Origin: Streptomyces angustmyceticus
Lineage (GTDB): Bacteria > Actinomycetota > Actinomycetes > Streptomycetales > Streptomycetaceae
Direction: 5' to 3'
Assembly: GCF_019933235.1 (NCBI RefSeq)
Contig: NZ_CP082945.1
Coordinates: forward strand, 4,873,501 to 4,937,500
DNA: 64,000 bases
The position numbers were made by a program, and so were the translations under genes. A model generated the notes under the pieces. The model worked only from the letters and a program-made list of their open reading frames with translations, did no database searches and was not told the DNA's origin. Positions 9,978 through 59,518 of this stretch are shown in pieces (position 1 is the first letter of the stretch; every line of letters begins with the position of its first letter).

Positions 9978-10991
9978 ATGCGTTCCGGGACCGGCCGACA
10001 CCGTCGCCCCCGTCAGGCACCGGCCATCTTTGTCACGGCGGGAGTGACCGGCGCAGGGTTCGCCCTGCCGCTGCTCGCCGCGAGCGGCGCGCACGCCGCC
10101 GACACCACGACCTGGGACAAGGTCGCCCAGTGCGAGAGTGCCGGCGTCTGGAGCGCGGCCTCGGGCAACGGCTACTACGGCGGGCTGCAGCTCACCCAGG
10201 AGATGTGGGACACCTACGGCGGCGCGGCCTACGCCTCGCGCCCCGACCTCGCCAGCCGCTCCCAGCAGATAGCGGTCGCCGAGTCGATCCTCGACCACCG
10301 CGGCCCGGAGGTCTGGTCGGGCTGTGCCGACGGCGCCGGCCTGGTCAAGGACGGCCGCGCGCCCGAGGTCGACCCGGGCAGCACCGCCACTCCCTCCCCC
10401 GCCCCGTCGGACGACTCCGCCGACCCCTGGGACTCCTCCGGCACGCCGGGCGGCCAGGGATCCGCCGGTCAGGACTCCGGCCAGGACTCCTCCGGGGCGC
10501 ACGACGAGACCGGCGGCAGCCAGGCCGATCCGGCGCCCTCGCCCGAGCCTTCGGACTCCGCCGGCTCCGACGACGGCCCCGGCAGCCGGCAGCCGTCGGG
10601 CTCCGCGACCCCGGGCGACCGGGACGAGGACCCGTCGCCGTCCGCCGACCCGTCCGAGGGCGGCAGCCGTCCGGACACCACCGGCACCCCGCACAAGGCG
10701 CCCACCCAGGGCAAGCACCGCGGCGACGCGGGCGACCAGGGCGCCGGCGACGACGACGGCCGGTCGGCCGGGGGCCGGCACGCCTCCCGCGGCGACGGCG
10801 CGCGGACGGACCCGGCGGCGGACGGCGCGTACACCGTGCGCCCCGGTGACACGCTGTCAGCCATCGCCTCGGCGCACCGGCTGCCCGGCGGCTGGCCCGC
10901 CCTCTACGACCGCAACGAGGGCGTCATCGGCACCGACGCGGACCTGATCAAGCCGGGCCAAAAGCTCGATCTCGGGCACAACGAAGGGTAA
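9978..10991 (+). CDS. Resuscitation-promoting factor with LysM domain (RpfC-like)
   Basis: A secreted muralytic protein of 337 residues. The order is a signal peptide ending at about residue 40 (SGAHA), then the Rpf lysozyme-like domain ([11 protein letters not shown] carrying the catalytic Glu, GYYGGLQLTQEMW). A roughly 150-residue Gly/Ser/Asp/Pro-rich linker follows, then a C-terminal LysM (YTVRPGDTLSAIASAH). It probably cleaves cell-wall glycan during spore germination or growth. ATG 9978 has AAAGG seven bases upstream. The linker is much longer than in the second Rpf. No c-di-AMP riboswitch is visible upstream, in contrast with the next gene. Confidence 0.93.
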   Translation: MRSGTGRHRRPRQAPAIFVTAGVTGAGFALPLLAASGAHAADTTTWDKVAQCESAGVWSAASGNGYYGGLQLTQEMWDTYGGAAYASRPDLASRSQQIAVAESILDHRGPEVWSGCADGAGLVKDGRAPEVDPGSTATPSPAPSDDSADPWDSSGTPGGQGSAGQDSGQDSSGAHDETGGSQADPAPSPEPSDSAGSDDGPGSRQPSGSATPGDRDEDPSPSADPSEGGSRPDTTGTPHKAPTQGKHRGDAGDQGAGDDDGRSAGGRHASRGDGARTDPAADGAYTVRPGDTLSAIASAHRLPGGWPALYDRNEGVIGTDADLIKPGQKLDLGHNEG

Positions 10992-11204
10992 TTCGCCTCC
11001 CTTCGCCCTCTTTTGGGAAAGTGAGACAAGGGTCTCGTTGACCGCGCTGAACCCCGGTGCGTCCGCCCTCGGCAAACCGGGGTTCACCTGCGGGTATGTG
11101 TCCGATCCGTGATCAAAAACGGTCAACTTGGTTCAGATGATGGGGTTTGAACCCCAAGGGCATTACTGCTTAACGTCAGGACCGCTCGCCAAAGCGGGCC
11201 CTTC

Positions 11205-13689
<2,485 letters not shown>

Positions 13690-38614: not shown

Positions 38615-40027
38615 CTAACCCCCGGATCCGACGGTGTGCGGGTCCTCCCGGGGCGCCGCCGGCCATGCGGTGCGCGCGGTGTCGCGGCGGGCGGTGAGCC
38701 AGTACAGGACGGCCGGCACGGCGAGCCCCACCAGCCAGGAGACGTCGGCGCCGCCGAGCGGTTCGACCAAGGGGCCGGTGTAGAAGTGCGTGGCCAGGAA
38801 CGGGAGCTGGGCGAGCACCCCGGCGGCGTAGACCGCCAGCGCCGGGACGTTCCAGGCGCCGTAGCGTCCCGTGGGGTCGCTGAGCGCCGGGATGTCGTAG
38901 CGCTCCTTGGAGATCAGGTAGTAGTCGACGAGATTGACGGCCGACCAGGGCGTGAAGAAGGTCAGCAGGAAGAGCAGGAAGTCCTTGAAGGACGTCAGGA
39001 ACGAGTCCTTGCCCAGGAGGGCGACCGCCGTGCCGGCCACCATGATCCCGGCGATGTACGCGGAGCGGCCGCGCGGGGAGAGGGTGCGCTGCCCGCGGAA
39101 GCCGCTGACGCTGGTGACCAGCGACATGAACCCGCCATAGGTGTTGAGGATGTTGATGGTGAGTTTGCCCAGGGCGATGACGAAGTAGAGGCACGAGGCG
39201 ATCAGGCCGGTGCCGCCCAGGCCGACGAGGTAGCCGACCTCGTGCCCGACGAACGCCCCGGGCGCCGCGGCGGCGGCCAGCGCGCCGAACGTCATCGACC
39301 ACTGCGAGCCGAGCACCGAGCCGGACAGCGTCCACCAGAACGTGGCGCGCGCCGAGGTGTGCCGCGGCAGGTAGCGCGAGTAGTCGGCGACGTACGGGCC
39401 GAACGCCAGCTGCCAGGAGGCCGACAGCGAGACGGCCAGCAGGAAGACCGGCAGCCCGAAACGGTGGTCGGCCAGGAGCGTGCCGAGGTCGGTGCGCTGC
39501 AGCAGCCGGATGCCGAGGTAGACGAAGGCCAGCGCGCAGATCAGGCCGGTGACCCTGCCGAGGGTGTGGATCAGGCGGTAGCCCACCGCCGCGGCGACGG
39601 CGGTGACCGCGGCGAACAGCACGATGCCCGGTGTCTCGCCGAGGTGCGTCAGCTCGCCGACCGCCTGCCCGGCCAGGACGCTGCCGCTGGCGAAGAACCC
39701 GATGTACATCACGATGACCAGCGCCAGCGGGACCACCGCGCCGCGCACCCCGAACTGAGCCCGCGAGGTGATCATCTGCGGCAGGCCCAGCCGCGGCCCC
39801 TGGGCGGAGTGCAGCGCCATCACCGCGCCGCCCAGGAGGTTGCCGAGCAGCAGCCCGATCAGCGACCAGAAGGCGTTCGCCCCGAAGACGACGGCCAGCG
39901 CGCCGGTGATGACGGCGGTGATCTGGAGGTTGGCGCCCAGCCAGAGCGTGAACTGGCTGACCGCGCTGCCGTGCCGTTCGTCGTCGGGGACGACGTCGAT
40001 GGAACGCCTTTCGACCACACCTGCCAT
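38615..40027 (-). CDS. NCS1-family nucleobase/hydantoin-type permease
   Basis: A 470-residue secondary transporter with about 12 helices. The NCS1 pattern is seen in SQFTLWLGANLQITAVITGA (helix 1), PQMITSRAQFGVRG, and SWQLAFGPYVADYSRYLP. The family carries cytosine, uracil, allantoin, hydantoins or purines with Na+ or H+. The substrate cannot be read here. ATG 40027 follows a compact promoter region that shares a long element with the OpuC-type operon 7.6 kb away. Co-regulation with it and with hutU is the most useful clue to its substrate. Confidence 0.9.
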   Translation of the reverse strand: MAGVVERRSIDVVPDDERHGSAVSQFTLWLGANLQITAVITGALAVVFGANAFWSLIGLLLGNLLGGAVMALHSAQGPRLGLPQMITSRAQFGVRGAVVPLALVIVMYIGFFASGSVLAGQAVGELTHLGETPGIVLFAAVTAVAAAVGYRLIHTLGRVTGLICALAFVYLGIRLLQRTDLGTLLADHRFGLPVFLLAVSLSASWQLAFGPYVADYSRYLPRHTSARATFWWTLSGSVLGSQWSMTFGALAAAAAPGAFVGHEVGYLVGLGGTGLIASCLYFVIALGKLTINILNTYGGFMSLVTSVSGFRGQRTLSPRGRSAYIAGIMVAGTAVALLGKDSFLTSFKDFLLFLLTFFTPWSAVNLVDYYLISKERYDIPALSDPTGRYGAWNVPALAVYAAGVLAQLPFLATHFYTGPLVEPLGGADVSWLVGLAVPAVLYWLTARRDTARTAWPAAPREDPHTVGSGG

Positions 40028-40125: not shown

Positions 40126-40683
40126 TCAGACCGTGGCCGGCCCGCCGGCCGGGCGGAGTTCGTCCGCGTACGAGACCGAGACCCGCCGCATCAGACCGTC
40201 CTCGGTGATGTCGTACTGGCCCAGCCGCCACAACGGCGGCGAGTAGGCGTGCACCGACACCGCGTCGTCGCTCGCGCCGGTCAGCCGGTGGATGTGGTCC
40301 GGGCCGAAGCAGAAGGAGGCGCCCGCGCCGACCGTGGTGGCCAGGTGCGCGCCGCCGATGCGGGGGTTGGACTCGGTCAGCTCGCCCTGGACCACGCGGA
40401 CCGCCCCGGAGGAGAGGTCGTGGTCGTGCCAGCCGGTGTCGTTCCGCCGGGTCCAGCACAGCAGCCAGACGTCCACGAACTCGTCGCGGTGCAGGGAGGC
40501 GTAGTGGCGCTCGGTGTCCGAGAAGGCGACCTGTTCGCGCCACAGGTCCGGGCGGGTGGCGAGCGCCTCCACCAGGGCCTGCAGCTCGCGCTTGTCGAGG
40601 TTGCGTGCGGGCAGTGCGGAGAACGGCTCCTCGCCGTCGGGGACCTCGCGGGCGGTGGCGGCCAGGGAGGTGCGGTACGTCAT
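40126..40683 (-). CDS. Cysteine-dioxygenase-family cupin
   Basis: A 185-residue non-heme iron thiol dioxygenase of the bacterial CDO/cupin family. Metal ligands are expected in TGWHDHDLSSGAVRVVQGEL (two His) and in FGPDHIHRLTG (third His). The family WLLCWTRRNDTGWHDH segment is clear. It would oxidise cysteine or another small thiol to the sulfinate. ATG 40683 overlaps the upstream amidohydrolase stop by four bases and has AAAGGAG upstream. Whether the true substrate is cysteine is open, since close relatives use 3-mercaptopropionate and similar thiols. Confidence 0.9.
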   Translation of the reverse strand: MTYRTSLAATAREVPDGEEPFSALPARNLDKRELQALVEALATRPDLWREQVAFSDTERHYASLHRDEFVDVWLLCWTRRNDTGWHDHDLSSGAVRVVQGELTESNPRIGGAHLATTVGAGASFCFGPDHIHRLTGASDDAVSVHAYSPPLWRLGQYDITEDGLMRRVSVSYADELRPAGGPATV

Positions 40684-41597
40684 GGGCGGGCTCCTTTCGT
40701 CGGGCCCAGCAGGCGGGCCGGGTTGGCGGTGCGCAGGGCGTGGAGGGCGGCCCGTGCCCCGAGGTCGGGGAGGACGGGCTCGGCGTAGGGGCGGTCGCTG
40801 CCGCTGACGACGACGTCGATGCCGGCGGCCCGGACGAGCGCGTCGACCGCGCGGGTGCCGTACGACGACGTCTCGTAGAACGCCCGGCAGTCCACCCGGG
40901 CGCGCTCCCGGCCGCCGCCGCGGGCCACCAGCCGCTCGCCGTGCAGCGGCGCCAGGCCCGCCAGGGCCGCGAAGCAGACCCGCAGCTCCGGGTGGCGCGG
41001 CCGGCCGAAGGCGCGGAAGGCGAACCAGGAGGCGTGCAGCTGCTGGACGTACGGGACCAGGGCCGGCCACCAGGCGGGCGCGTTCCCCTCGGCGGGCGGG
41101 GCCGGGCCGGGGTGGACGAACAGCGGCGCGTCCTGCTCGGCGGCGGCGTCCAGCAGCGGCGCGCAGCGGGCCCATCCGGCGGCGTCGAGCAGGGCGGTGG
41201 CGGGCAGTTGCAGGCCCACGCAGCCGCGGGCCAGCTCGCGCCGCAGCGCGTCGGCGTCCGGTTCCGGCGCGGACAGGCAGGCGGCGGCCCAGACGCCGAA
41301 GGGCGCGGGGAGGTCCAGCGCGCCGTCGTGGAACGCGGCGAGCAGCGGCGCGGCCTCCGCGGGCGGCAGGTGTTCGATGCCGAGCGGGCTGGAGAGCGAG
41401 ATGAGGGCCAGGTCGAGGCCGTCGGCGCGGGCGAGCCGGGCGCGGGCCGCGATGTCGTGGTCGGCGGGGTCGACGGCGTACGGGGGTTCGCCCGGCAGGT
41501 GCAGCGTCCAGCCGTCCAGCCGCGGCGGCGCGCCGCGGGCCCGCAGCAGCGCGAGGAACTCGGGCGGCCAGAGGTGCTGGTGGACGTCGGTGGGCAC
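40680..41597 (-). CDS. Amidohydrolase (amidohydrolase_2) family protein
   Basis: A 305-residue TIM-barrel metal-dependent hydrolase or decarboxylase of the ACMSD-like amidohydrolase_2 family. The N-terminal TDVHQHLWPPEF supplies the HxH metal pair. FVHPGPAPP carries a barrel His, and VSGSDRPYAEP near the end carries the last-strand Asp. GTG 41597 has GGGAGG upstream. It forms a coupled two-gene operon (ATGA overlap) with the cupin dioxygenase and is divergent from a LacI regulator across a large inverted repeat. Substrate is unknown. Confidence 0.85.
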   Translation of the reverse strand: MPTDVHQHLWPPEFLALLRARGAPPRLDGWTLHLPGEPPYAVDPADHDIAARARLARADGLDLALISLSSPLGIEHLPPAEAAPLLAAFHDGALDLPAPFGVWAAACLSAPEPDADALRRELARGCVGLQLPATALLDAAGWARCAPLLDAAAEQDAPLFVHPGPAPPAEGNAPAWWPALVPYVQQLHASWFAFRAFGRPRHPELRVCFAALAGLAPLHGERLVARGGGRERARVDCRAFYETSSYGTRAVDALVRAAGIDVVVSGSDRPYAEPVLPDLGARAALHALRTANPARLLGPTKGARP

Positions 41598-41659
41598 GGG
41601 CCTCCCTCGGGGCGCGGGGCGGTCGTCGGGGTGGCGCGGGTGGGGTCTCCCGTGCCTTG

Positions 41660-41706
41660 AACCGTTTCACTTAACCGCTTAACTGATACGTTTAAGTGAA
41701 ACGGTT
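41660..41706. promoter_or_regulatory. 47-bp inverted repeat, likely LacI-family operator
   Basis: Arms AACCGTTTCACTTAA (41660-41674) and TTAAGTGAAACGGTT (41692-41706) match perfectly around 17 bases that themselves contain GCTTAAC. The right arm also overlaps palindrome CGGTTAACCG (41702-41711). It sits between the amidohydrolase operon and the lacI-type gene and is a local AT-rich island. Auto- and operon regulation by that LacI protein is the natural reading. Confidence 0.7.
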
Positions 41707-41824
41707 AACCGAGGGTGCTGTCAAGGTCCTGCCGCGTCCCCGGGCGGGGCCGCCGGGGCCCCGCGCCGCCGGGGAGCCCGGATCGTGCCCGGCTGGCGGG
41801 CCCTCCTTGGGTAGGCTTCCGGGC

Positions 41825-42862
41825 ATGGCCAGGCCCAACAAGCGCACCACCCTCCGCGAGGTGGCCGAGGCCACCGGCCTCTCCACCGCGGCCGTCTCCT
41901 ACGCGCTGCGCGGCAAGCACGTCTCGAAGGAAACCGAGGAGCGGGTGCGCAAGGCCGCCGCCGAACTCGGCTACGAGGCCGACCCCATCGCCCGCGCCCT
42001 CGCCAGCGGCCGTACCAGCACGGTCGGGGTGCTCGCCGGCGATCTGCAGGACCTGTGGCAGCAGCAGCTGATGGCGGCGATAGGGCGGGAGCTGCTGGCC
42101 GGCAACCGCTACGCGCTGATCCTCGACGCGGGCGGCGACCCCGGACGCGAGCTGTCCCTCGCCAAGCAACTGCGCGACCAGCGGGTGGACGGCCTGCTGG
42201 TGTCGCCCGTCGACCCGTCCGCCGAGGGCTGGTCGAAGATCGCCGACGCCGTGCCGGTGGTGTCCATCGGCGACGCCCTGAGCCGGGCCCGTACGGCGGG
42301 CGAGGTGCTCTTCGACAACCGGGCCGGCATCGACGCCGTCCTCGACTACCTCCGCGGCCTGGGCCACCGCCGGGTCACCGTGCTGACCCCCACCGGCCCC
42401 TCCACCCCCGACCGCCCCGCCGACGTCTATGTGCGCGAGGCCGCCGACCGGCTCGGCATCGAGGCCGTGGTCCTGCCCTGCCCGCAGGAGCTGGGCGAGG
42501 CGACGGCGATGGCCCGCCGGGTCCTGACCAACAGCCCCGACGGCCGCCGGCCCGCCGGTCCCGCCCCGGCCACCGCCGTCTTCTGCTTCTCCGACTCCAT
42601 CGCGTACGGCGTCTACGCGGCCGCCGCCGAGGCCTCCCTCACCGTCGGCCGCGACCTCTCCGTCGTCGGCTTCGACGACCACCCCGTCTCCCGGGTCCTC
42701 ACCCCGCCGCTCACCACCGTCGACTGGGGCCTGACCGACATCGCCAAGGAGGCCGCCCGCCTGGCCGTCGCCGCCATCGAGGGCCGCCGCGTCCGCCGCA
42801 AACGCATCCTGTGCGCCCCCCGCCTCTCGGAACGCGGCTCGGCGGCGGCACCGCGGGGGTAG
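41825..42862 (+). CDS. LacI-family transcriptional regulator
   Basis: A 345-residue regulator. The N-terminal HTH ([23 protein letters not shown]) and hinge helix (about 50-60, [15 protein letters not shown]) precede a periplasmic-binding-protein-like sensor domain ([17 protein letters not shown], then [16 protein letters not shown] and [16 protein letters not shown]). It probably controls the divergent amidohydrolase-dioxygenase operon through the inverted repeat at 41660-41706. The inducer is unknown. ATG 41825 begins the HTH, and an upstream in-frame extension is not conserved in type. Confidence 0.93.
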
Positions 42863-44064: not shown

Positions 44065-44991
44065 TCAGCCGGCCACGTGCTTCTTGAGCCAGGCGTCGGC
44101 CACCCGGTCCGGGTCCTGCTTCTCCTTGTCGACCAGGCGGTTGAGCTCGGTGAGGTGGGCGGTGGTGAGGGTGTTGCCCAGGCGGGCCAGCGCCTTGCGG
44201 ACCTTGGAGTCGGCCTTGCGGGCGGCGATCAGCGGGACGATGTGCTGCGCCGGGATCAGGTGCTCGGGATCCGCCAGCAGGACCCAGCCGTTCTCCGCGG
44301 TGTCGACGTCGGTGGTGAAGACGTTGCCGACGTCGATGTCGCCCTTCTTCAGCGCGCCCTTGACCAGCGGCCCGGAGGAGTCCAGCGCCTTGAACTCCTT
44401 GAATTCCACGCCGTAGGCGTCCTTGAGACCGACCAGCCCGACGACCCGCTTCTTCATCTCGGCGGCCGCGCCGAACACCAGCTTGCCGTTGACCTTGCGC
44501 AGGTCGGCCAGCGTCTTCAGGCCGTAGCGGTCGGCGGTCGCGCGGGTCACCGCGAAGCTGTCACGGTCCTCGGCGGCCGCGTACGGCAGGACTTCGAGAC
44601 CGTCGGGGAGCACGGCGGCCAGCGCGTTCTGCATCGCGCCCGCCTCGGTCTCGGTGGCCTTCTTGTCGAGGTAGAGCAGCAGGCTGCCCTGGTACTCGGG
44701 GAGCAGGTCGATGTCGCCGGAGCGCAGCGCGGGGACCACGATCTCGCGGGAGCCGAGGTTGGGCTTGACGGTGGCCTTGACCCCGGCGGCGGTCAGCACG
44801 CCCGCGTAGAGGTAGCCGAGGATCTGGTTCTCGGTGAAGTTGGCGGTGCCGATGACCAGCCCGCCGGAGCTGCTCCCGCTGTCGCCGCCGGCGCCGTCCC
44901 CCTTGAGGGAGGTGATGCCGGAGGAGCAGGCGGCCAGCAGCGGGGCCGAGGCGCCGGCGAGGAGGGTGGTCAGGGCGGTACGGCGGTTCAT
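44065..44991 (-). CDS. OpuC/ProX-type quaternary-amine substrate-binding lipoprotein
   Basis: A 308-residue solute receptor. The signal has NRR near the start and lipobox LLAAC (Cys22), so it is lipid-anchored outside the membrane. The OpuAC fold is indicated by GTANFTENQILGYLYAGVL and LGSREIVVPALRSGDIDLLP. Family ligands are glycine betaine, choline, carnitine and related trimethylammonium compounds. The EgtU receptor for ergothioneine belongs to the same superfamily. It is the last gene of the four-gene operon and starts at ATG 44991 with GGAG upstream. Confidence 0.9.
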   Translation of the reverse strand: MNRRTALTTLLAGASAPLLAACSSGITSLKGDGAGGDSGSSSGGLVIGTANFTENQILGYLYAGVLTAAGVKATVKPNLGSREIVVPALRSGDIDLLPEYQGSLLLYLDKKATETEAGAMQNALAAVLPDGLEVLPYAAAEDRDSFAVTRATADRYGLKTLADLRKVNGKLVFGAAAEMKKRVVGLVGLKDAYGVEFKEFKALDSSGPLVKGALKKGDIDVGNVFTTDVDTAENGWVLLADPEHLIPAQHIVPLIAARKADSKVRKALARLGNTLTTAHLTELNRLVDKEKQDPDRVADAWLKKHVAG

Positions 44992-45035: not shown

Positions 45036-45707
45036 TCAGCGGGCGGTGGCCGGGCGGCCGCGGAACAGCAGCCGCGTCAGGCCGCCCAGGGCCAGGTCGG
45101 CGACCACGGCGAGCACGGCGACCAGGGCCGCACCGCCGAGCACCTGCACCAGGTCGCGCTGCGCCAGCCCGTCGAAGACATAGCGGCCCAGCCCGCCGAA
45201 GCTGACGTAGGCGGCGATGGTGGCGGTGGCGACGACCTGCACGGTCGCCAGCCGCACACCGGTCATGATCAGCGGGAGGGCGAGCGGGAGTTCCACCTGC
45301 CACAGGACCTGGTGGCCGCGCAGCCCCACGCCCTTTGCGGCGTCCTTGACCTCGGGGTCGACGGCGGCCATCCCCGCGTACGTATTGGTGATGATCACCG
45401 GCACGGCGAGCGCGACCAGCGAGACGTACACCGGCCACACGCTCAGCCCGCCCGCGAGGAACACCAGGGTGACCAGGCCGACGGTGGGCAGCGCCCGGCC
45501 GAAGGAGGAGAGGTTGACGGCGAGGAAGGCGCCGCGGCCGGTGTGCCCGATGAGCAGGCCGACGGGCAGCGCGATCACGGCCGCGGCGAGGGTGGCGAGC
45601 AGCGAGTACTCCAGGTGCTCCAGGACGCGGGCGGCGATGCCCTCGGGGCCCGACCACTGGGCCGGACTGGTCAGCCAGGTGAGGAGGTTCTTCAGCAGTT
45701 CGAGCAT
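45036..45707 (-). CDS. OpuC-type ABC permease (second)
   Basis: A 223-residue permease with about five membrane helices. The EAA coupling motif is in VDPEVKDAAKGVGLRGHQVL. The helix SLLATLAAAVIALPVGLLIG and the ATIAAYVSFGGLGRYVF segment are typical of OpuCB/OpuCD. It pairs with the preceding permease to form the channel. Only seven bases separate it from the upstream gene. Confidence 0.92.
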   Translation of the reverse strand: MLELLKNLLTWLTSPAQWSGPEGIAARVLEHLEYSLLATLAAAVIALPVGLLIGHTGRGAFLAVNLSSFGRALPTVGLVTLVFLAGGLSVWPVYVSLVALAVPVIITNTYAGMAAVDPEVKDAAKGVGLRGHQVLWQVELPLALPLIMTGVRLATVQVVATATIAAYVSFGGLGRYVFDGLAQRDLVQVLGGAALVAVLAVVADLALGGLTRLLFRGRPATAR

Positions 45708-45714
45708 CGGTGCG

Positions 45715-46389
45715 TCACGCCGCCTTCCGCCGCATGAAGGTGCGCTGCCGGGAGGTGCCGCGCCGCCAGGGCGTGCACAGCCACTGGACGGTCACCAGCA
45801 GCGCGTCGGCGACCAGGGCGAGCAGCAGGGTCAGGGCCACCCCGGCGACGACCGGGGTGGGGAAGTTGCGCTGGAAGCCGTCGGTGAAGAGCTGGCCGAG
45901 ACCGCCGTAGCCGATGTAACTCGCCACGCTGACCAGGGAGATGGACATGACGGTGGCGACCCGTACGCCCGCCATGATCACGGGGAGGGCGAGCGGCAGC
46001 TCGACGGTGAGCAGGGTGCGCAGCGGCCGGGTCCCCATGGCCCGGGACGCCTCACGGACCTTGGCGGGCACCGCGTCCAGGCCCTCGACGGTGTTCCGCA
46101 CCAGCACCACCAGGGTGTACGCGGTCAGGCCGACGATCGCGGTGGTGCGGGTGAGGCCGGTGACCGGCAGGAGGAGGACGAAGAAGGCGAGGGAGGGGAT
46201 GGTGTAGAGGATGTTGGACGCGCCGAGGATGACGCCGCGCAGCGGCCGTACCCGGTGTGCGAGGACCGCCAGGGGCAGGGCGATCAGCAGGCCGAGGACG
46301 ACGGCGGGGACGGCGGTGGCGAGGTGGTCCGCGGTCAGGCGGGCCATCTCGTCGGCGTGGTCGGGGAACCAGCCCCATTCGAGGGTCAT
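45715..46389 (-). CDS. OpuC-type ABC permease (first)
   Basis: A 224-residue permease. The EAA motif region is VPAKVREASRAMGTRPLRTL and the family ending is VASYIGYGGLGQLFTDGF. It has about five to six helices beginning HLATAVPAVVLGLLIALPLA. Its ATG overlaps the ATPase stop by four bases (ATGA), so production is coupled. It forms a heterodimeric membrane domain with the next gene product. Confidence 0.92.
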   Translation of the reverse strand: MTLEWGWFPDHADEMARLTADHLATAVPAVVLGLLIALPLAVLAHRVRPLRGVILGASNILYTIPSLAFFVLLLPVTGLTRTTAIVGLTAYTLVVLVRNTVEGLDAVPAKVREASRAMGTRPLRTLLTVELPLALPVIMAGVRVATVMSISLVSVASYIGYGGLGQLFTDGFQRNFPTPVVAGVALTLLLALVADALLVTVQWLCTPWRRGTSRQRTFMRRKAA

Positions 46390-47621
46390 GCGGGGCGCTC
46401 CGTGGCGGCGGAGGGGGAGGCCGCGCCGGGGGCGGTGTCCTCGGGGGCGGTCTCGGACGCGGTTTTCGCGACGGGTGCCGTGGGGGCGGCGTTCGCGGTG
46501 GCCGCGGCCCGGCCCGCCTCTGCCCGGCCCGCCTCCGCGTGGCTGCGGCCCGCCCGGTCGTGGATGGCGTCGCGGGAGGTGAGGCCGGTCAGGACGCCGT
46601 CCTCGGTGACCCGGGCGACCGCGGCGGCGGGGGAGGAGACCGCCTCGTTGAGCGCGGAGAGCAGCGAATCGCTGTCGCGCAGCGGCCGTACGTCCTCCAG
46701 CGGGGCCTCGCCGGCCGTCCCGCCGGCCGGCAGCGCGTCGGTGTCCAGCCACCCCAGCGGCTCCCCGCGCGGGGAGGTCACCAGGCGCCAGCGGCCACCG
46801 TTGCGGGGTATCCCGCCGACCGGCTCGTCCGCGCGTATCGCCCGGCCGGGGGCGTACGGGACGTCCGCGAGGGTGGTGAGCGAGAGCAGCTTCAGGCCGC
46901 GTTCGGCGCCCAGGAAGCCGGCGACGAAGTCGTCGGCGGGGCGGGCCAGCAGCTCGGCGGGCTCGGCGCACTGGACGAGCCGGCCGCCGGTGCGGAAGAC
47001 CGCGATCCGGTCGCCCAGCCGGACGGCCTCGTCGATGTCGTGGGTCACGAAGACGACGGTCTTGCGCAGCTCCTCCTGGAGCCGCAGCAGCTCGTTCTGC
47101 AGCTGGGTGCGGACGACCGGGTCGACGGCGCCGAACGGCTCGTCCATCAGCAGCACGGGCGGGTCGGCGGCGAGCGCGCGGGCGACGCCGACGCGCTGCT
47201 GCTGGCCGCCGGAGAGCTGGTGCGGATAGCGCTTGCCGGCGTCGGCGGGCAGTCCGACCAGCTCCAGCAGTTCGGCGGCGCGGGCGCGGGCCTTGCGCTT
47301 GCCCCAGCCCAGCAGCAGGGGGACCGTCGCGATGTTGTCCAGGATCGTACGGTGAGGGAAGAGACCGGACTGCTGGATGACGTAACCGATGCCGCGACGC
47401 AGCTCGGCGGCGTCCGCCTCCAGGATGTCGCGGCCGCCGACGCTGATCCTGCCGGAGGTCGGCTCGACCATGCGGTTGACCATCCGCAGGGTGGTGGTCT
47501 TGCCGCAGCCCGACGAGCCGACGAGGACGGTGACACCGCCCTCGGGGAGGTCCAGGGACAGCTCGTCCACGGCGGTGGTGCCATTCGGGTATCGCTTGCT
47601 GACTGCGTCGAACTTGATCAT
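46386..47621 (-). CDS. OpuC/ProV-type ABC ATPase
   Basis: A 411-residue ATPase energising the quaternary-amine importer. Walker A is LVGSSGCGKTTTLRMVN, the signature is LSGGQQQRVGVARALA, and Walker B is PPVLLMDEPFGAVD with the switch His in VFVTHDIDEA. After residue about 240 comes a C-terminal extension with a CBS-like part (VTEDGVLTGLTSRDAIHDR), the usual ionic-strength or ligand sensor of this family, then an Ala/Pro/Thr-rich tail. ATG 47621 has AAGGGG upstream. It is the first gene of the operon and diverges from the lyase-family gene. Confidence 0.93.
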   Translation of the reverse strand: MIKFDAVSKRYPNGTTAVDELSLDLPEGGVTVLVGSSGCGKTTTLRMVNRMVEPTSGRISVGGRDILEADAAELRRGIGYVIQQSGLFPHRTILDNIATVPLLLGWGKRKARARAAELLELVGLPADAGKRYPHQLSGGQQQRVGVARALAADPPVLLMDEPFGAVDPVVRTQLQNELLRLQEELRKTVVFVTHDIDEAVRLGDRIAVFRTGGRLVQCAEPAELLARPADDFVAGFLGAERGLKLLSLTTLADVPYAPGRAIRADEPVGGIPRNGGRWRLVTSPRGEPLGWLDTDALPAGGTAGEAPLEDVRPLRDSDSLLSALNEAVSSPAAAVARVTEDGVLTGLTSRDAIHDRAGRSHAEAGRAEAGRAAATANAAPTAPVAKTASETAPEDTAPGAASPSAATERPA

Positions 47622-47640
47622 CCGCTGCCCCTTGCCCGGC

Positions 47641-47698
47641 CTGCATAGTGTCATGCAGAGTCATAGGCGCGTGAATAGAAGTCAATAGGCGGAAGTGA
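47641..47698 (-). promoter_or_regulatory. OpuC-type operon promoter with shared TTGAC..ATTCA element
   Basis: Read on the minus strand: TTGACT (47685-47680), 17 bases, GACTCT (47662-47657), then CTGCATGA. TATTCA follows the -35 after two bases. A hexamer inverted repeat CTGCAT/ATGCAG (47641-47658) covers the expected start site. The whole block aligns with the NCS1 permease promoter (40052-40100). The -35 and TATTCA pairing also occurs before hutU. Confidence 0.7.
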
Positions 47699-47794
47699 AT
47701 CGCCTGTTACCTCGCCTGTTGGTTCGACTCACCGTACGGAACGAGGTGTCGGACTTCGATCCACAAAGCGCGTTATAAGAGGGAGTTGAGCCCC

Positions 47795-49291
47795 TTGGTT
47801 TCCCACATGCTGGACAGCGGCCCCCGCACGGGCCGGCGCGTCACGCTCGACGGCACCGGTCTGCACAGCGCCGACATCGCCGCCCTCGCCCAGCGCACCG
47901 CGCATCCCACGGCGCCCGACCCCAAGGCCCTCGCCCGCGCCGAGGAGTCCTGGGAGACCGCGCGCCGCCTGGCCGCCACCGGCCGGGTCTACGGACGCAG
48001 CACCGGCGTCGGCGCCAACCGCACGGAGGACGTCGGCGCCGCGGACGCCGACCACGGACTGCGGCTGCTGCGCAGCCACGCCGGCGCGATCGGCGACCCG
48101 CTGCCCGCCCGCGAGGTCCGCGCCATGCTCGCGGTGCGCGCCAACCAGCTGCTGGCGGGCGGCGCCGGCCTGAACCCCGCCGTCATCACCTCCCTGCTCG
48201 CCGCCCTGGACGCCGGCGCGCACCCCGTCGTCAACGAACACGGCGCCGTCGGCACCGGCGACCTGGCCGCGCTCGCCCAGACCGGACTCGCGCTGGCCGG
48301 CGAACACCCCTGGCACTGCGCGTCCGGCGGCCGGGCCCCCGCCCCCATCACCCTCGACAACAACGACGCCCTCGCCCTGATCAGCAGCAACGCCCTCACC
48401 CTCGGGCAGGCCGCGCTCGCCCTCGACGAACTGCGCCGCCTGCTGGCCGCGGCCCTCCCCGTCGCCGCCCTCTCCCTGCTCGCGGTCGGCGGCTCGTACG
48501 AGCCCTTCGCCGAGCCGGTCATGCTCGCCCGCCCGCACCCCGGCTCCGCGGCCGCCGCCACCCGGCTGCGCGCCCTGACCGGCGTGCCGCCCCGCCCGGC
48601 CCCGCCCCTCGGCCGCATCCAGGACCCGTACGGCTTCCGCTGCATCCCGCAGATACACGGCCCGGCGCTGGACGCCGCCGACACCCTGGACGGGGTGCTG
48701 ACCGTCGAGGTGAACGCGGCCGCCGAGAACCCCCTGATCAGCATCGAGGACCAGGCCGCCTACCACCACGGCAACTTCTACGCCGCCCACGTCGCGCTCG
48801 CCCTGGACGCCTTCCGGCTCGCCGTGCTGCAGACCGCCCAGCTGTCCACCGCCCGGCTCGCCGCGCTCTCCGAGCCCGACTTCACCCGGCTGCGGCCCTT
48901 CCTGGGCGACCCGGCGCCCGCCAGCTCGGGCGTGATGATCCTCGAATACGCGGCCGGCGCGGCCCTCGGCGAGATGCGGGCGGTCTCCCAGCCGGCCACG
49001 CTCGGCCACACCGTGCTCTCCCGCGGCGTCGAGGAACAGGCCAGCTTCGCCTCCCTCGGCGCCCGCCAGACGCTGCGCGCCTGCACCTCCTACCGCCAGA
49101 TCCTCGCCTGCGAACTGGTCGCCGCCGTACGGGCCCTGCGGATGCGCTCCCTGGAACCCGACCCGGACGCTCCGCTCGCCGCCGTCTACGCCGTCGCCGC
49201 CGACGCCCTCGACCCGCGGATGGAGGACCGCCCGCTGACCGACGACGTGGCGGTGGCGGCGGGGCTGCTGGACGGGGTGGCGGGGTGGTGA
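47795..49291 (+). CDS. HAL/PAL-family lyase-like protein lacking the MIO triad
   Basis: About 498 residues, the length of histidine ammonia-lyase, with much of the fold's fingerprint: VYGRSTGVGANR (the catalytic Tyr loop), IQDPYGFRCIPQIHG, AAAENPLI and a late SRGVEEQASFASLG. Where HAL has Gly-Ser-Val-Gly-Ala-Ser-Gly-Asp-Leu, this protein reads GAVGTGDL (Gly153-Thr154-Gly155). One residue is missing and the Ser that forms the MIO cofactor is Thr. It is therefore unlikely to be a classical ammonia-lyase. MIO-less relatives such as ergothionase eliminate trimethylamine. TTG 47795 is chosen for its GGGAG spacing. TTG 47786 and ATG 47807 are alternatives. Confidence 0.85.
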   Translation: MVSHMLDSGPRTGRRVTLDGTGLHSADIAALAQRTAHPTAPDPKALARAEESWETARRLAATGRVYGRSTGVGANRTEDVGAADADHGLRLLRSHAGAIGDPLPAREVRAMLAVRANQLLAGGAGLNPAVITSLLAALDAGAHPVVNEHGAVGTGDLAALAQTGLALAGEHPWHCASGGRAPAPITLDNNDALALISSNALTLGQAALALDELRRLLAAALPVAALSLLAVGGSYEPFAEPVMLARPHPGSAAAATRLRALTGVPPRPAPPLGRIQDPYGFRCIPQIHGPALDAADTLDGVLTVEVNAAAENPLISIEDQAAYHHGNFYAAHVALALDAFRLAVLQTAQLSTARLAALSEPDFTRLRPFLGDPAPASSGVMILEYAAGAALGEMRAVSQPATLGHTVLSRGVEEQASFASLGARQTLRACTSYRQILACELVAAVRALRMRSLEPDPDAPLAAVYAVAADALDPRMEDRPLTDDVAVAAGLLDGVAGW

Positions 49292-49420: not shown

Positions 49421-50488
49421 ATGAGCGGGGACGGGGACAACGGCGCCGGTGCCGCCGGCACGGCCGGCGACGAGCCGAGGAACACCGGCGGCGCGGCCGG
49501 CGAGGGCACGAACGCCGCGGGCGGGCCCGGGAACGGCGGGTCCGGGAACGGTGCGCGCGGCAAGGGCGCGGGGAGCGACGGCGCGCGGGGCGACGACGTG
49601 CGCGGCGGCGGGGCGAGCGGCGAGGCGGCGGCGGGTGATGCCGCCGGCGGCGCGGACACCGGTACCGCCGCCCGCCTCCAGAAGCTCTTCGAGGGCCACC
49701 GGCTGACCCCGACCCAGCGCCGGATCGCCCACTGCATGGTGCGCCGGGCCGCCGACGCGCCCTTCCTCTCCAGCGTCGAACTGGCCGAACTGGCCGGCGT
49801 CAGCCAGCCGTCCGTCACCCGCTTCGCCGTCGCCCTCGGCTTCGACGGCTACCCGGCGCTGCGCCGGCACCTGCGCGAGGTCGCCCCCACGGACAGGTCC
49901 GGCGACACCGGCTCCGCGAACGAGTACCAGCAGGCCGTCCAGGCCGAGATCGACAACCTCCGCCAGCTCGCCGCCGCCTTCGCCGACCCCTCGCCGGTCA
50001 TCGAGGCCGGCCGCCTCCTCGCCGCCTCCCGGCCGCTGCCCGTCCTCGGGCTGCGCGCCGCCACCGCCCAGGCCGCCGGCTTCAGCTACTTCGCCCGCAA
50101 GGTCCACCCCGACGTCCGTCTCCTGGACGAGGGCGGCACCATGCTCACCGACCGCATCGACGCCGCCGTACGGGCCGGCGCGGACGCACTGCTCTGCTTC
50201 GCCCTGCCTCGCCACCCCCGCGAGGTGGTCGACGCCCTCGACTACGCCCGTACGGCCGGCCTGACCGTCGTCACCGTCGCCGACAGCGCCTTCGCCCCCG
50301 TCGCCCACCACACCGACCTGCTCCTCCCGGCCCCCGTCGGCACCGGCCTGGCCTTCGACACGGCCTGCGCCCCCATGCTCCTGGGCCGCGTCCTGCTGGA
50401 GGCGATGTGCGACGCCCTCCCGGACGCCCAGGCCCGCCTGGAGGAATTCGACGCGGGGGCGGCGGCCCGGGGGCTGTTCGTGGAGTGA
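49421..50488 (+). CDS. MurR/RpiR-family transcriptional regulator
   Basis: A 355-residue regulator. After an unusual Gly/Ala/Asp-rich low-complexity N-terminus of about 75 residues comes the RpiR HTH (LTPTQRRIAHCMVRRA, then SSVELAELAGVSQPSVTRFA). A SIS domain follows (LPVLGLRAATAQAAGFSYFA, then ADALLCFALPRHPREVVDAL). SIS domains usually bind phosphosugars, but several RpiR proteins regulate amino-acid or betaine use. It follows the MIO-less lyase gene by 129 bases on the same strand, so it is the best local candidate for controlling that gene and the divergent transporter. Confidence 0.93.
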   Translation: MSGDGDNGAGAAGTAGDEPRNTGGAAGEGTNAAGGPGNGGSGNGARGKGAGSDGARGDDVRGGGASGEAAAGDAAGGADTGTAARLQKLFEGHRLTPTQRRIAHCMVRRAADAPFLSSVELAELAGVSQPSVTRFAVALGFDGYPALRRHLREVAPTDRSGDTGSANEYQQAVQAEIDNLRQLAAAFADPSPVIEAGRLLAASRPLPVLGLRAATAQAAGFSYFARKVHPDVRLLDEGGTMLTDRIDAAVRAGADALLCFALPRHPREVVDALDYARTAGLTVVTVADSAFAPVAHHTDLLLPAPVGTGLAFDTACAPMLLGRVLLEAMCDALPDAQARLEEFDAGAAARGLFVE

Positions 50489-56612: not shown

Positions 56613-58283
56613 ATGTCGGGACCGCGACCCGTGCGGGCACCGCGCGGAACGGAGCTGAGTGCTCGGGGATGGCAGCAGGAAGCCGCGCTGCGCATGCTGC
56701 AGAACAACCTCGATCCGGAGGTGGCCGAACACCCGGACCAGCTCGTCGTCTACGGCGGCACGGGCAAGGCCGCGCGTGACTGGCGCTCCTTCGACGCGAT
56801 GGTGCGCACGCTCACCACGCTCAAGCAGGACGAGACGATGCTCGTCCAGTCCGGCCGGCCGGTCGGCGTGATGCAGACGCACGAATGGGCCCCGCGGGTG
56901 CTCATCGCCAACTCCAACCTCGTCGGCGACTGGGCCAACTGGGAGGAGTTCCGGCGGCTGGAGGCCCTCGGCCTGACCATGTACGGGCAGATGACCGCCG
57001 GTTCGTGGATCTACATCGGCACCCAGGGCATCCTCCAGGGCACCTACGAGACCTTCGCCGCCGTCGCCGCGAAGAAGTTCGGCGGCACGCTCGCCGGGAC
57101 GATCACCCTCACCGCGGGCCTCGGCGGCATGGGCGGCGCCCAGCCGCTCGCCGTCACCATGAACGACGGCGTCGCGATCTGCATCGACGTCGACCCGCGC
57201 GCCATCGAGCGCCGGATCGAGCACCGCTACCTGGACGTGCGGGCCGACAGCCTCAAGCACGCCCTCGAACTCGCGGTCGAGGCCCGCGACCGGCGCAAGC
57301 CGCTCTCCATCGGCCTGCTCGGCAACGCCGCCGAGCTGCTGCCGCAGATGCTCGCCGAGGGCGCGCCGATCGACATCGTCACCGACCAGACCAGCGCCCA
57401 CGACCCGCTGGCCTACCTCCCGGTCGGCATCGACTTCGACGACATGGCCGCCTACGCCGCCGAGAAGCCCGCCGACTTCACCCAGCGGGCCCGCGAGTCC
57501 ATGGCCCGGCACGTCGAGGCCATGGTCGGCTTCATGGACGCCGGCGCCGAGGTCTTCGACTACGGCAACTCGATCCGCGGCGAGGCCCAACTCGCCGGGT
57601 ACGAGCGCGCCTTCGCCTTCCCCGGCTTCGTCCCCGCCTATATCCGGCCACTGTTCGCCGAGGGCAAGGGGCCGTTCCGCTGGGCCGCGCTGTCCGGCGA
57701 CGCCCGGGACATCGCCGCGACCGACAAGGCGATCCTGGACCTCTTCCCCGAGAACGAGTCGCTGGCCCGCTGGATCAAGATGGCCGGCGAGCGGGTCCAC
57801 TTCCAGGGCCTGCCCGCCCGGATCTGCTGGCTCGGCTACGGCGAGCGCGACAAGGCCGGTGAACGCTTCAACGAGATGGTCGCCGACGGGACGCTCCGGG
57901 CCCCGCTGGCCATCGGCCGCGACCACCTCGACTGCGGCTCCGTCGCCTCGCCCTACCGCGAGACCGAGGCCATGAAGGACGGCTCGGACGCGATCGCCGA
58001 CTGGCCGCTGCTCAACGCCATGGTCAACGTCGCCTCCGGCGCCTCCTGGGTCTCGCTGCACCACGGCGGCGGCGTCGGCATGGGCCGCTCGATCCACGCC
58101 GGCCAGGTCACCGTCGCCGACGGCACCCCGCTGGCCGGCGAGAAGATCCGCCGGGTGCTCACCAACGACCCCGGCATGGGCGTCATCCGGCACGTCGACG
58201 CGGGCTACGAGCGCGCCGACGAGGTGGCCGCCGAGCGCGGCGTCCGCATCCCGATGCGCGAGGGCGAGGGCGGGGACGCGTGA
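56613..58283 (+). CDS. hutU: Urocanate hydratase
   Basis: The second step of histidine breakdown, urocanate to imidazolone-propionate, using tightly bound NAD+ as electrophile. At 556 residues it is full family length. Diagnostic stretches are [11 protein letters not shown], the NAD-binding [17 protein letters not shown], and the [20 protein letters not shown] region with the active-site Cys. It starts at ATG 56613 with GGGAGG upstream, and its stop overlaps the next gene's GTG (GTGA). It is the first gene of the hut operon. No hutH lies beside it. Confidence 0.98.
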
Positions 58284-59518
58284 CCGCCTCGTTCCACGAG
58301 ATGTGGGAGGAGCTGCGGCCCCTGGGCCGCGACTCCTCCTCCGGGGGCTACCGCCGCTACGCCTGGACCGGAGCCGACGCCGACTGCCGCGCGTGGTTCC
58401 GGGCGCAGGCCGAGGCCCGCGGGCTCGCCTGCGAGCTGGACCGCAACGGCAACCAGTGGGCCTGGCTCGGCGCCACCGGCCACCAGGACGTGGCCCCGGG
58501 CGACGCCGTCGTCACCGGCTCGCACCTGGACTCCGTGCCGGACGGCGGCGCCTTCGACGGCCCGCTGGGCGTCGTCTCCTCCTTCGCCGCGCTGGACGAA
58601 CTCCGCCGGAGAGGAGTGGAGTTCACCAAGCCGCTGGCGATCGTCAACTTCGGCGACGAGGAAGGCGCCCGCTTCGGCCTGGCCTGCGTCGGCTCCCGGC
58701 TCGCCGCCGGCGCGCTGACCCCCGAGGCCGCGCACCGGCTGCGCGACGGCGACGGCGTCACCCTCCCGCAGGCCATGGAGCGCGCCGGGTACGACCCCGA
58801 CGCCATCGGTCCGGACCCCGAACGGCTCGCCCGGATCGGCGCGTTCGTCGAACTCCACGTCGAACAGGGCCGGGCCCTGGACCTCTCCGGCGACCCGGTC
58901 GGCATCGCCTCCGCCATCTGGCCGCACGGCCGCTGGCGGTTCGACTTCCGCGGCGAGGCCAACCACGCCGGCACCACCCGCCTGGAGGACCGCCGCGACC
59001 CGATGCTCAGCTACGCCGCGACCGTGCTCGCCGCCCGCGAGCAGGCCCGGCTGGCCGGTGCCCTGGCCACCTTCGGGAAGATCAGCGTGGAGCCGAACGG
59101 CGTCAACGCCATTCCCTCGCTGGTCCGCGGCTGGCTGGACTCCCGCGCCCCCGACCAGGACACCCTGGACACCGTGGTCGCCGGGATCGAGCGGGCCGCC
59201 GCCGAACGGGCCGCCCGCGACGGGGTGGACCTGAGCGTCGTGCGCGAATCCTTCACCCCGGTCGTGGAATTCGGGCACGCCCTGCGCGACGAACTCGGCG
59301 CCATCCTCGGCAAGACGGCGGAGCGGCCGGTGCCGGTCCTGGGCACCGGCGCCGGGCACGACGCCGGTATTTTGTCCGGAACCGTCCCCACGGCGATGCT
59401 GTTCGTCCGCAACCCCACCGGCGTCTCGCACTCACCCGCCGAGGCGGCGGCCGAGGACGACTGCGTCGCGGGGGTCACCGCACTCGCCGACGTACTGGAA
59501 GGGCTGGCGTGCCACTGA
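58280..59518 (+). CDS. M20-family amidohydrolase (allantoate amidohydrolase-like), hut-linked
   Basis: A 412-residue zinc amidohydrolase of the allantoate/N-carbamoyl-amino-acid hydrolase type. Metal sites are seen in [20 protein letters not shown] (His, Asp), [11 protein letters not shown] (Glu-Glu), FVELHVEQG (His) and [11 protein letters not shown] (last His). [13 protein letters not shown]-like [16 protein letters not shown] is the dimer-site motif. It is coupled by overlaps to hutU and hutF. The HutF route makes N-formylglutamate and no HutG gene is present, so it is a good candidate for N-formylglutamate deformylase (inference). Confidence 0.9.

Follow-up and report, generated by a model that had tools for sequence, protein, structure and literature searches.

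The HAL-like gene and its cofactor loop

We analysed a 64,000-nucleotide stretch of the Streptomyces angustmyceticus genome (contig NZ_CP082945.1, positions 4,873,501 to 4,937,500; hereafter the window), which contains at 47795..49291 on the forward strand a gene for a protein related to histidine ammonia-lyase (HAL) that lacks the amino acid triad from which the 4-methylideneimidazole-5-one (MIO) cofactor is made. Its product is a putative hercynine (N,N,N-trimethylhistidine) trimethylamine-lyase. An open frame runs from a TTG at 47786 to the stop ending at 49291, and there are three options for the start: TTG 47786, TTG 47795, which has AGGGAG nine bases upstream, and ATG 47807, from which residues are numbered here (494-aa form). 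The protein belongs to the aromatic amino acid lyase superfamily (PF00221, 370 bits against a cut-off of 27.3), but not to the HutH equivalog family (TIGR01225, 287.8 bits against 539.15), and no ergothionase model is among the NCBIfam matches listed for it and five of its relatives.

The family fingerprints recognized in the initial annotation (YGRSTGVG, IQDPYGFRC and AAAENPLI) are all present, and its description of the former MIO site is borne out by alignment with the Pseudomonas putida HAL. The codons at 48242..48265 (forward strand) encode GAVGTGDL, one residue short of the usual motif, and the window protein reads GAVGT-GDLA where the P. putida enzyme has GSVGASGDLA; with the Ser absent there is neither Ala-Ser-Gly nor any Xaa-Ser-Gly. 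An alignment of 44 sequences (A1) combines the window protein with proteins from 43 of 80 named loci, which were chosen by likeness to a Nonomuraea protein and lean to the Streptosporangiales. Gly-Thr-Gly-Asp is invariant at the loop in all 44, and a further loop comparison has 37 rows including the window's own copy, with the L052 frame not covering the loop site. The loop is shortened in all 26 members of the clade to which the window protein belongs (see below), 23 with T-G-D, two with T-A-D and one with I-G-D. A sequencing error is ruled out as the cause of the odd loop, because Thr-Gly-Asp is invariant in the 44 relatives and the gene is present in 60 of 121 Streptomyces genomes. One ordinary HAL, with the loop GSLGCSGDL, is encoded elsewhere in the same genome.

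Active site and predicted structure

A second departure from HAL is at Asn195, which is replaced by Ser (LISSNA versus LLNGTQ). The rest of the pocket is retained, with the equivalents of HAL Tyr53, His83, Gln277, Tyr280, Arg283, Phe329 and Glu414 invariant in 44 of 44 sequences of A1, and all of these except Tyr280 kept in 26 of 26 members of the wider clade. The loss at the cofactor site is therefore specific, the MIO triad and Asn195 being gone from a pocket that is otherwise kept. Compared with HutH (P. putida, PDB 1b8f; Thermoplasma, PDB 7tqr), the window protein shares the fold, the pocket residues and a Hut neighbourhood, but differs in these two losses and in its score below the equivalog cut-off.

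The closest parallel to the loop is in the Treponema denticola ergothionase (PDB 6s7j and 6s7q), which has a PF00221-type fold and a MIO-free loop also one residue shorter than that of HAL (SSIGEGDI, aligned as SSIGE-GDIT). The ergothionase has Ser-Cys-Asn-Ala in place of HAL Asn195-Gly-Thr, similar to the window protein, and it keeps the equivalents of Tyr53, His83, Arg283 and Glu414. However, the two proteins are only 24% identical and fall in separate clades, and Gln382-Lys383 of the Treponema enzyme corresponds to Glu-Tyr. They also differ in context, as the window has no thiourocanate hydratase partner scoring over cut-off and the neighbours are instead a dioxygenase, an amidohydrolase and HutU.

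A structure model built from the 44 sequences (predicted local distance difference test score, pLDDT, 86.5; predicted template modelling score, pTM, 0.90) has the HAL/ergothionase fold. Its six best solved matches lie within Z scores of 40.7 to 39.9 and include the Thermoplasma HAL (40.7; root mean square deviation, rmsd, 2.8 over 462 aligned residues), tyrosine aminomutase (40.6), ergothionase (40.3; rmsd 2.7 over 477 residues) and the T. cruzi HAL (39.9), with the P. putida HAL next at 39.1; Foldseek also points to the HAL/ergothionase fold. The fold indicated by the model is not in doubt, but the structure does not separate the possible substrates, because HALs, tyrosine aminomutase and ergothionase tie in Z score.

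Position in the lyase family

The initial annotation proposed that the protein be aligned with known lyases and its clade determined. We constructed an unrooted tree of 49 proteins, with rows picked from the sequences at hand and seven of them MIO enzymes. All 26 rows of the window type, among them the deep relatives L079 to L082, together make up one side of a branch with support of 100/100, and the type is thus neither with the Treponema ergothionase nor among the seven MIO rows. The ergothionase groups with L057 and L058 (100/99) outside the window clade. Another split (100/99) sets the MIO enzymes, together with a group of four proteins that have lost the whole of ASGD (the GYLTH group), apart from every other MIO-free protein; it has support of 97 in a quick tree with the columns of the four motifs removed. 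The group of other MIO-free proteins is weaker (88/90) and is not one side of a branch once the motif columns are removed; a single MIO loss common to the window type and ergothionase is possible. We conclude that the window type is a clade of MIO-free lyases separate from ergothionase and most likely acting on hercynine.

Genes flanking the HAL-like gene

Four genes transcribed leftwards, divergently from the HAL-like gene, encode an ATP-binding cassette (ABC) transporter of the quaternary-amine (OpuC/ProV) type. The ATPase gene (46386..47654) scores 306.6 bits with TIGR01186 proV, below the cut-off of 326.6, and is syntenic in relatives. Two permease genes (45715..46341, with a provisional start, and 45036..45707) have ProW as their best NCBIfam match, also below cut-off, and the fourth gene (44065..44991) encodes a substrate-binding lipoprotein (PF04069 OpuAC, 178 bits) whose best solved relatives are EgtUC (88.7 bits) and ProX (84.1 bits), in searches using a start two codons downstream. 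The binding protein is of the same quaternary-amine class as EgtU and keeps the equivalents of EgtUC Glu375 and Arg379, residues given in an excerpt of the EgtU report (PMC9732360).

Directly downstream of the HAL-like gene is a gene for an RpiR-type regulator (49421..50488, forward strand; PF01418), which is present at 20 of 20 named Streptomyces loci. Approximately 7 kb from the HAL-like gene there is a forward-strand gene for urocanate hydratase, HutU (56613..58283; TIGR01228, 902 bits against a cut-off of 375), which falls below the cut-off of the thiourocanate hydratase model (652 versus 930). It is overlapped by a gene for an M20-family allantoate amidohydrolase-like protein (58280..59518, forward strand; NF006770, 659.6 bits against 372).

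The dioxygenase and amidohydrolase genes

Further to the left are two reverse-strand genes that overlap by 4 bases. The first, at 40126..40683, encodes a cysteine-dioxygenase-family protein (PF05995) whose closest solved relative is PDB 8qfl, a Thermocatellispora protein with which it shares 66% identity over 172 aa. A gene adjoining the HAL-like gene of Thermocatellispora tengchongensis (L133) encodes a product identical to 8qfl at 184 of 184 residues, so that the window dioxygenase and the solved protein share both sequence and neighbourhood. The PDB entry is labelled 'Cysteine dioxygenase', but we take it to be an ergothioneine dioxygenase, the structure presumably coming from the work of Nalivaiko, Vasseur and Seebeck. 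These authors reportedly described (Angew. Chem. 2024) an ergothioneine dioxygenase from Thermocatellispora tengchongensis together with a metal-dependent desulfinase, the latter said to convert ergothioneine sulfinate to trimethylhistidine and SO2. By homology and position the window gene is a likely ergothioneine dioxygenase; a single-sequence model of it is poor (pLDDT 40.9) and its fold search uninformative. The second gene (40680..41597) encodes an amidohydrolase-like protein that matches nothing in Pfam or NCBIfam at E 0.001 and has weak similarity in the PDB to metal-dependent decarboxylases. Its pairing with the dioxygenase suggests that it is likely the ergothioneine sulfinate desulfinase. 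An NCS1-type permease gene beside the dioxygenase (38615..40027, reverse strand; PF02133, 197.5 bits) is also nearby in some Streptomyces loci.

A LacI-type regulator gene (41825..42862, forward strand; PF00356/PF13377) is divergent from this pair and syntenic in relatives. In the interval between it and the amidohydrolase gene, at 41658..41708 (forward strand), are four palindromes with 13-base phasing and the consensus TKAANCGNTTMA, one of them mismatched. There are four matches to the motif in the window compared with 0.58 expected, a number reached by one of 100 shuffles. The motif is beside the LacI-type gene in 60 of the 80 named loci, and 121 of 123 occurrences are on the amidohydrolase side of that gene. 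These are probable operators of the LacI-type regulator.

Gene neighbourhoods in related genomes

In the Streptosporangiales the HAL-like gene sits beside the amidohydrolase and cysteine-dioxygenase-like genes. Within the stretches examined at 81 loci (the 80 named and Nonomuraea L053), we found the dioxygenase at 59, the amidohydrolase at 57, the LacI-type regulator at 62, the binding protein at 22 and HutU at 20. The non-Streptomyces named loci, from Nonomuraea, Planotetraspora, Herbidospora, Acrocarpospora, Streptosporangium, Thermocatellispora, Actinomadura and other genera, have the dioxygenase in 55 of 60 cases and the amidohydrolase in 53 of 60. Five of them are without a dioxygenase (L120, L121, L122, L131 and L151); in three of the five the amidohydrolase is near the end of the stretch and the next gene may fall outside it; the L151 contig is 6 kb long. 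In a set of 20 Streptomyces loci (19-20 kb each), the 13 closest (L033 to L045) include 10 with all four transporter genes, and three of the other seven also have all four, at 40-56% identity. Two Actinomadura loci (L150 and L155) have the transporter, HAL-like, LacI-type, amidohydrolase and dioxygenase genes in one run.

There are several informative variations on this arrangement. One example is L080, a deep relative belonging to a different family of the phylum, in which a single same-strand run contains genes for an RpiR regulator, a sodium symporter, a normal HAL (GSLGASGDL), the four transporter proteins, the MIO-free HAL-like protein, an M20 hydrolase and HutU. That the MIO-free protein is encoded in one run with HAL and HutU is consistent with a second way of making urocanate. 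A second example is L086, where genes for LacI, amidohydrolase and dioxygenase proteins (62, 66 and 69% identity) adjoin that of a MIO-free HAL of the other group (31%), an arrangement that looks as though one MIO-free type took the place of the other. In two Actinomadura and three metagenome-assembled genomes (L149, L152, L154, L157 and L163) the dioxygenase gene is directly beside the LacI-type gene and there is no amidohydrolase match within the stretch examined; in these, a different desulfinase may act or SO2 may be lost spontaneously. Finally, in L081 a HAL-like gene of the window clade (10635-11962) has as neighbours a gene for a rhodanese and one that is distantly dioxygenase-like (35%), and HutU is encoded about 5 kb from it.

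Distribution

The HAL-like gene is present in 60 of 121 Streptomyces genomes (E <= 1e-60; the best matches have at least 50% identity, and some are partial). In a search of the phylum 15 of 396 genomes pass, and 13 remain once L085, a normal MIO HAL, and L084, from the other MIO-free group, are removed. The dioxygenase is in 10 and the amidohydrolase in 18 of the 121 Streptomyces genomes, all among the 60 with the HAL-like gene (Fisher tests, 6e-4 and 7e-7 respectively, with relatedness ignored and the lists compared by eye). The dioxygenase is within ~8 kb of the HAL-like gene in seven of its 10 genomes and on another contig in three (G011, G022 and G024).

None of the 121 Streptomyces genomes, including that of the window, has a match over cut-off to the thiourocanate hydratase model NF058530. 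A weaker match is present in 120 of the 121, and in the window's genome this is HutU. In 36 of the 45 genomes with the HutU-type and HAL-like genes on one contig, the two are within 25 kb of each other (counted by hand; in the remaining 15 of the 60 the two genes are on different contigs), and much of this proximity in Streptomyces may reflect one inherited location. The window's genome is also predicted to make hercynine and ergothioneine, as it encodes EgtD (377.5 bits against a cut-off of 290.9) and EgtB (449.2 against 360).

A proposed hercynine trimethylamine-lyase

From these comparisons we think it likely that the HAL-like protein is an active MIO-free hercynine trimethylamine-lyase that supplies urocanate to the Hut pathway. 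The initial annotation had offered two options, an elimination enzyme acting on a trimethylammonium amino acid or a non-catalytic sensor. The first is favoured by the ergothionase-like loop, the invariant ring, carboxylate and base residues, and the transporter, HutU and dioxygenase neighbours; the second finds no support. The substrate class put forward with it, ergothioneine or hercynine, can be narrowed to most likely hercynine by the absence of thiourocanate hydratase over cut-off and by the gene context. Thiourocanate, unlike urocanate, would probably not be metabolised further, since none of the 121 Streptomyces genomes has a thiourocanate hydratase over cut-off and nearly all have the weaker match to the same model. 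An imidazole substrate is favoured because the equivalents of HAL His83 and Glu414 are kept.

The protein would convert hercynine to trans-urocanate and trimethylamine, with HutU leading onward to glutamate. MIO would not be needed, as trimethylamine is already a good leaving group. Tyr62 may act as or near the base that removes the beta proton, His91 and Glu409 may hold the imidazole, and Arg278 with Gln272 and Tyr275 the carboxylate. The short loop at Thr150-Gly151 and Ser193 would leave room for the trimethylammonium group where HAL has MIO and Asn195, and trimethylamine would depart unactivated into the space so freed. Roles of residues are here carried over by alignment from HAL, where they are generally known. 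Hercynine could be supplied through import by the divergent quaternary-amine transporter, or alternatively from ergothioneine by way of the dioxygenase and the amidohydrolase (as desulfinase) encoded 6-7 kb away. We infer the substrate, the products, the residue roles and the transporter ligand from sequence comparison.

The side-by-side dioxygenase-like and amidohydrolase-like genes are a point of likeness to oxidative ergothioneine degradation. That pathway (Nalivaiko, Vasseur and Seebeck 2024) reportedly ends at trimethylhistidine and SO2, and the HAL-like gene would be its continuation.

Several observations weigh against this interpretation. First, Phe293, which through a Tyr-to-Phe switch is the ergothioneine marker of EgtUC in the excerpted account (PMC9732360), corresponds to Tyr in 15 of 15 binding proteins (that of the window and 14 related ones, three of the rows coming from loci of the other HAL type). 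An EgtU-type ergothioneine importer is thus disfavoured, and hercynine as the transporter ligand is not certain; at positions 242-244 of the binding protein the HMMER and MAFFT alignments disagree. Second, Tyr275, equivalent to HAL Tyr280, is Phe, Val or Leu in nine of the 26 clade members, and single-sequence searches of the PDB place HALs (187 and 170 bits) above ergothionase (128 bits). Third, the ergothioneine link appears optional because, at the thresholds used, the dioxygenase is missing from 50 and the amidohydrolase from 42 of the 60 Streptomyces genomes with the HAL-like gene. Eight of the 18 Streptomyces amidohydrolases are moreover of a type with 65-67% identity located elsewhere in the genome, and so only 10 of the 18 speak for the window type; of four of the eight that were fetched, L090, L092 and L093 are beside a different MIO-free HAL and L091 has no HAL match. 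Fourth, we looked for co-regulation through the LacI operator and found the motif within 500 bases upstream of the HAL-like match at none of the 80 loci. Because of this absence, the HAL-like gene and the dioxygenase operon are probably neighbours under separate control.

Alternative functions

The alternative that survives best, although unlikely, is that trimethylamine is removed from ergothioneine sulfinate or sulfonate, or from some other aromatic or imidazole betaine, with the desulfinase acting afterwards or never. It draws on the five loci with a dioxygenase and no amidohydrolase match, and on a sulfonate route that reportedly features in the title of Yan 2022. However, the many Streptomyces that carry the HAL-like gene without a dioxygenase make the sulfinate an improbable general substrate, and the invariant His83 and Glu414 equivalents favour an imidazole over an indole or phenol ring.

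A strict ergothionase, converting ergothioneine to thiourocanate and trimethylamine, seems quite improbable. The shortened loop, the Ser-Ser/Cys-Asn-Ala segment and the ergothioneine-related neighbourhood are as one would expect of such an enzyme. But the window clade is separate from that of the Treponema ergothionase, thiourocanate hydratase is missing over cut-off from all the Streptomyces sampled, and the nearby dioxygenase would compete for ergothioneine. At the position of Lys383 of the Treponema enzyme (TIQKTF) the window clade has Tyr, Ile or His, although this is a candidate determinant only. In an excerpt of a review (PMC9103826), ergothionase is added to the EanB reaction mixture and turns ergothioneine into thiourocanate, and if compound 13 there is taken as hercynine this suggests that the known ergothionase does not readily take hercynine. 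An enzyme for hercynine would be a new specificity, because the known one seemingly does not use it readily. The literature searched, outside which the key ergothioneine-catabolism and Treponema ergothionase papers lie, contains nothing on a hercynine lyase, and in its available portions an ergothioneine dioxygenase is mentioned once, in passing, by a review of trimethylamine N-oxide.

Two further options are very improbable. Although the HAL fold and pocket are present, a histidine ammonia-lyase that still forms MIO, or acts on plain histidine without it, is contradicted by the missing triad (with a residue lost and Asn195 changed to Ser), the HutH score and the tree, and the genome already has a normal HAL. 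The cofactor loss taken alone would suit a non-catalytic sensor or dead paralogue, but the seven other HAL pocket residues are invariant across several families, the ring, carboxylate and base residues would be superfluous in a mere sensor, and the gene is kept in catabolic neighbourhoods with the transporter and HutU.

Possible links to ergothioneine catabolism and trimethylamine

If a hercynine trimethylamine-lyase is indeed encoded here, it would supply the step missing between the oxidation of ergothioneine and the catabolism of histidine and answer what becomes of hercynine, and actinobacteria that make ergothioneine would be able to feed on it as well, by way of the Hut pathway. Such an enzyme would represent a second, separate specificity among MIO-free lyases, and comparison with HAL would make it possible to test to what extent trimethylamine as a leaving group relieves the fold of its need for the cofactor. 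Of the 121 Streptomyces genomes sampled, about half have the gene.

It would also be a candidate source of the trimethylamine of Streptomyces. In the portions of the Streptomyces exploration study at hand (PMC5207766) the source of trimethylamine is left open: there is no cntA homologue, cutCD homologues are more expressed in static cultures and trimethylamine N-oxide reductase homologues are at very low expression. Nor is the source named in the portion of a second report available (PMC6401478). The full proposal, that a hercynine lyase distinct from ergothionases both completes an aerobic actinobacterial route (ergothioneine to sulfinate to hercynine, then to urocanate and trimethylamine, then to glutamate) and is the source of the trimethylamine volatile in Streptomyces exploration near fungi, is doubtful as a joint claim.

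Other MIO-free proteins of the family

Several other MIO-free HAL-family proteins were encountered. In three Streptomyces (L090, L092 and L093) a second MIO-free HAL with the loop GASDLC and Arg at the position of HAL His83 is encoded adjoining a gene for an amidohydrolase with 64-66% identity to that of the window, and transporter genes are also nearby in L090 and L092; it is possibly a lyase for another betaine. Two Rhizobium plasmids (L054 and L060) encode MIO-free HALs with GAADLA and likewise Arg at the His83 position, and in L060 the gene adjoins hutC and an ABC transporter gene, its product having ergothionase as the best PDB match (269.5 bits); L054 carries no annotation. The MIO-free HALs of Sinorhizobium and Paracoccus plasmids (L057 and L058) have a signal-peptide-like N-terminal stretch.

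The GYLTH group comprises proteins annotated as hutH on rhizobial, Aureimonas and Burkholderia plasmids (L055, L056, L061 and L182), with the loop GS[AV]GYL[TV] in which the whole of ASGD is missing. They keep Asn195-Gly-Thr and Gln-Glu-Asp and group beside the MIO enzymes, and the L061 gene sits among hutF, hutI, hutG and hutU. On a Deinococcus plasmid (L181) a MIO-free HAL gene (1393-2928; SLGESDL) is two genes past urocanate hydratase, with a DUF917 gene between them.

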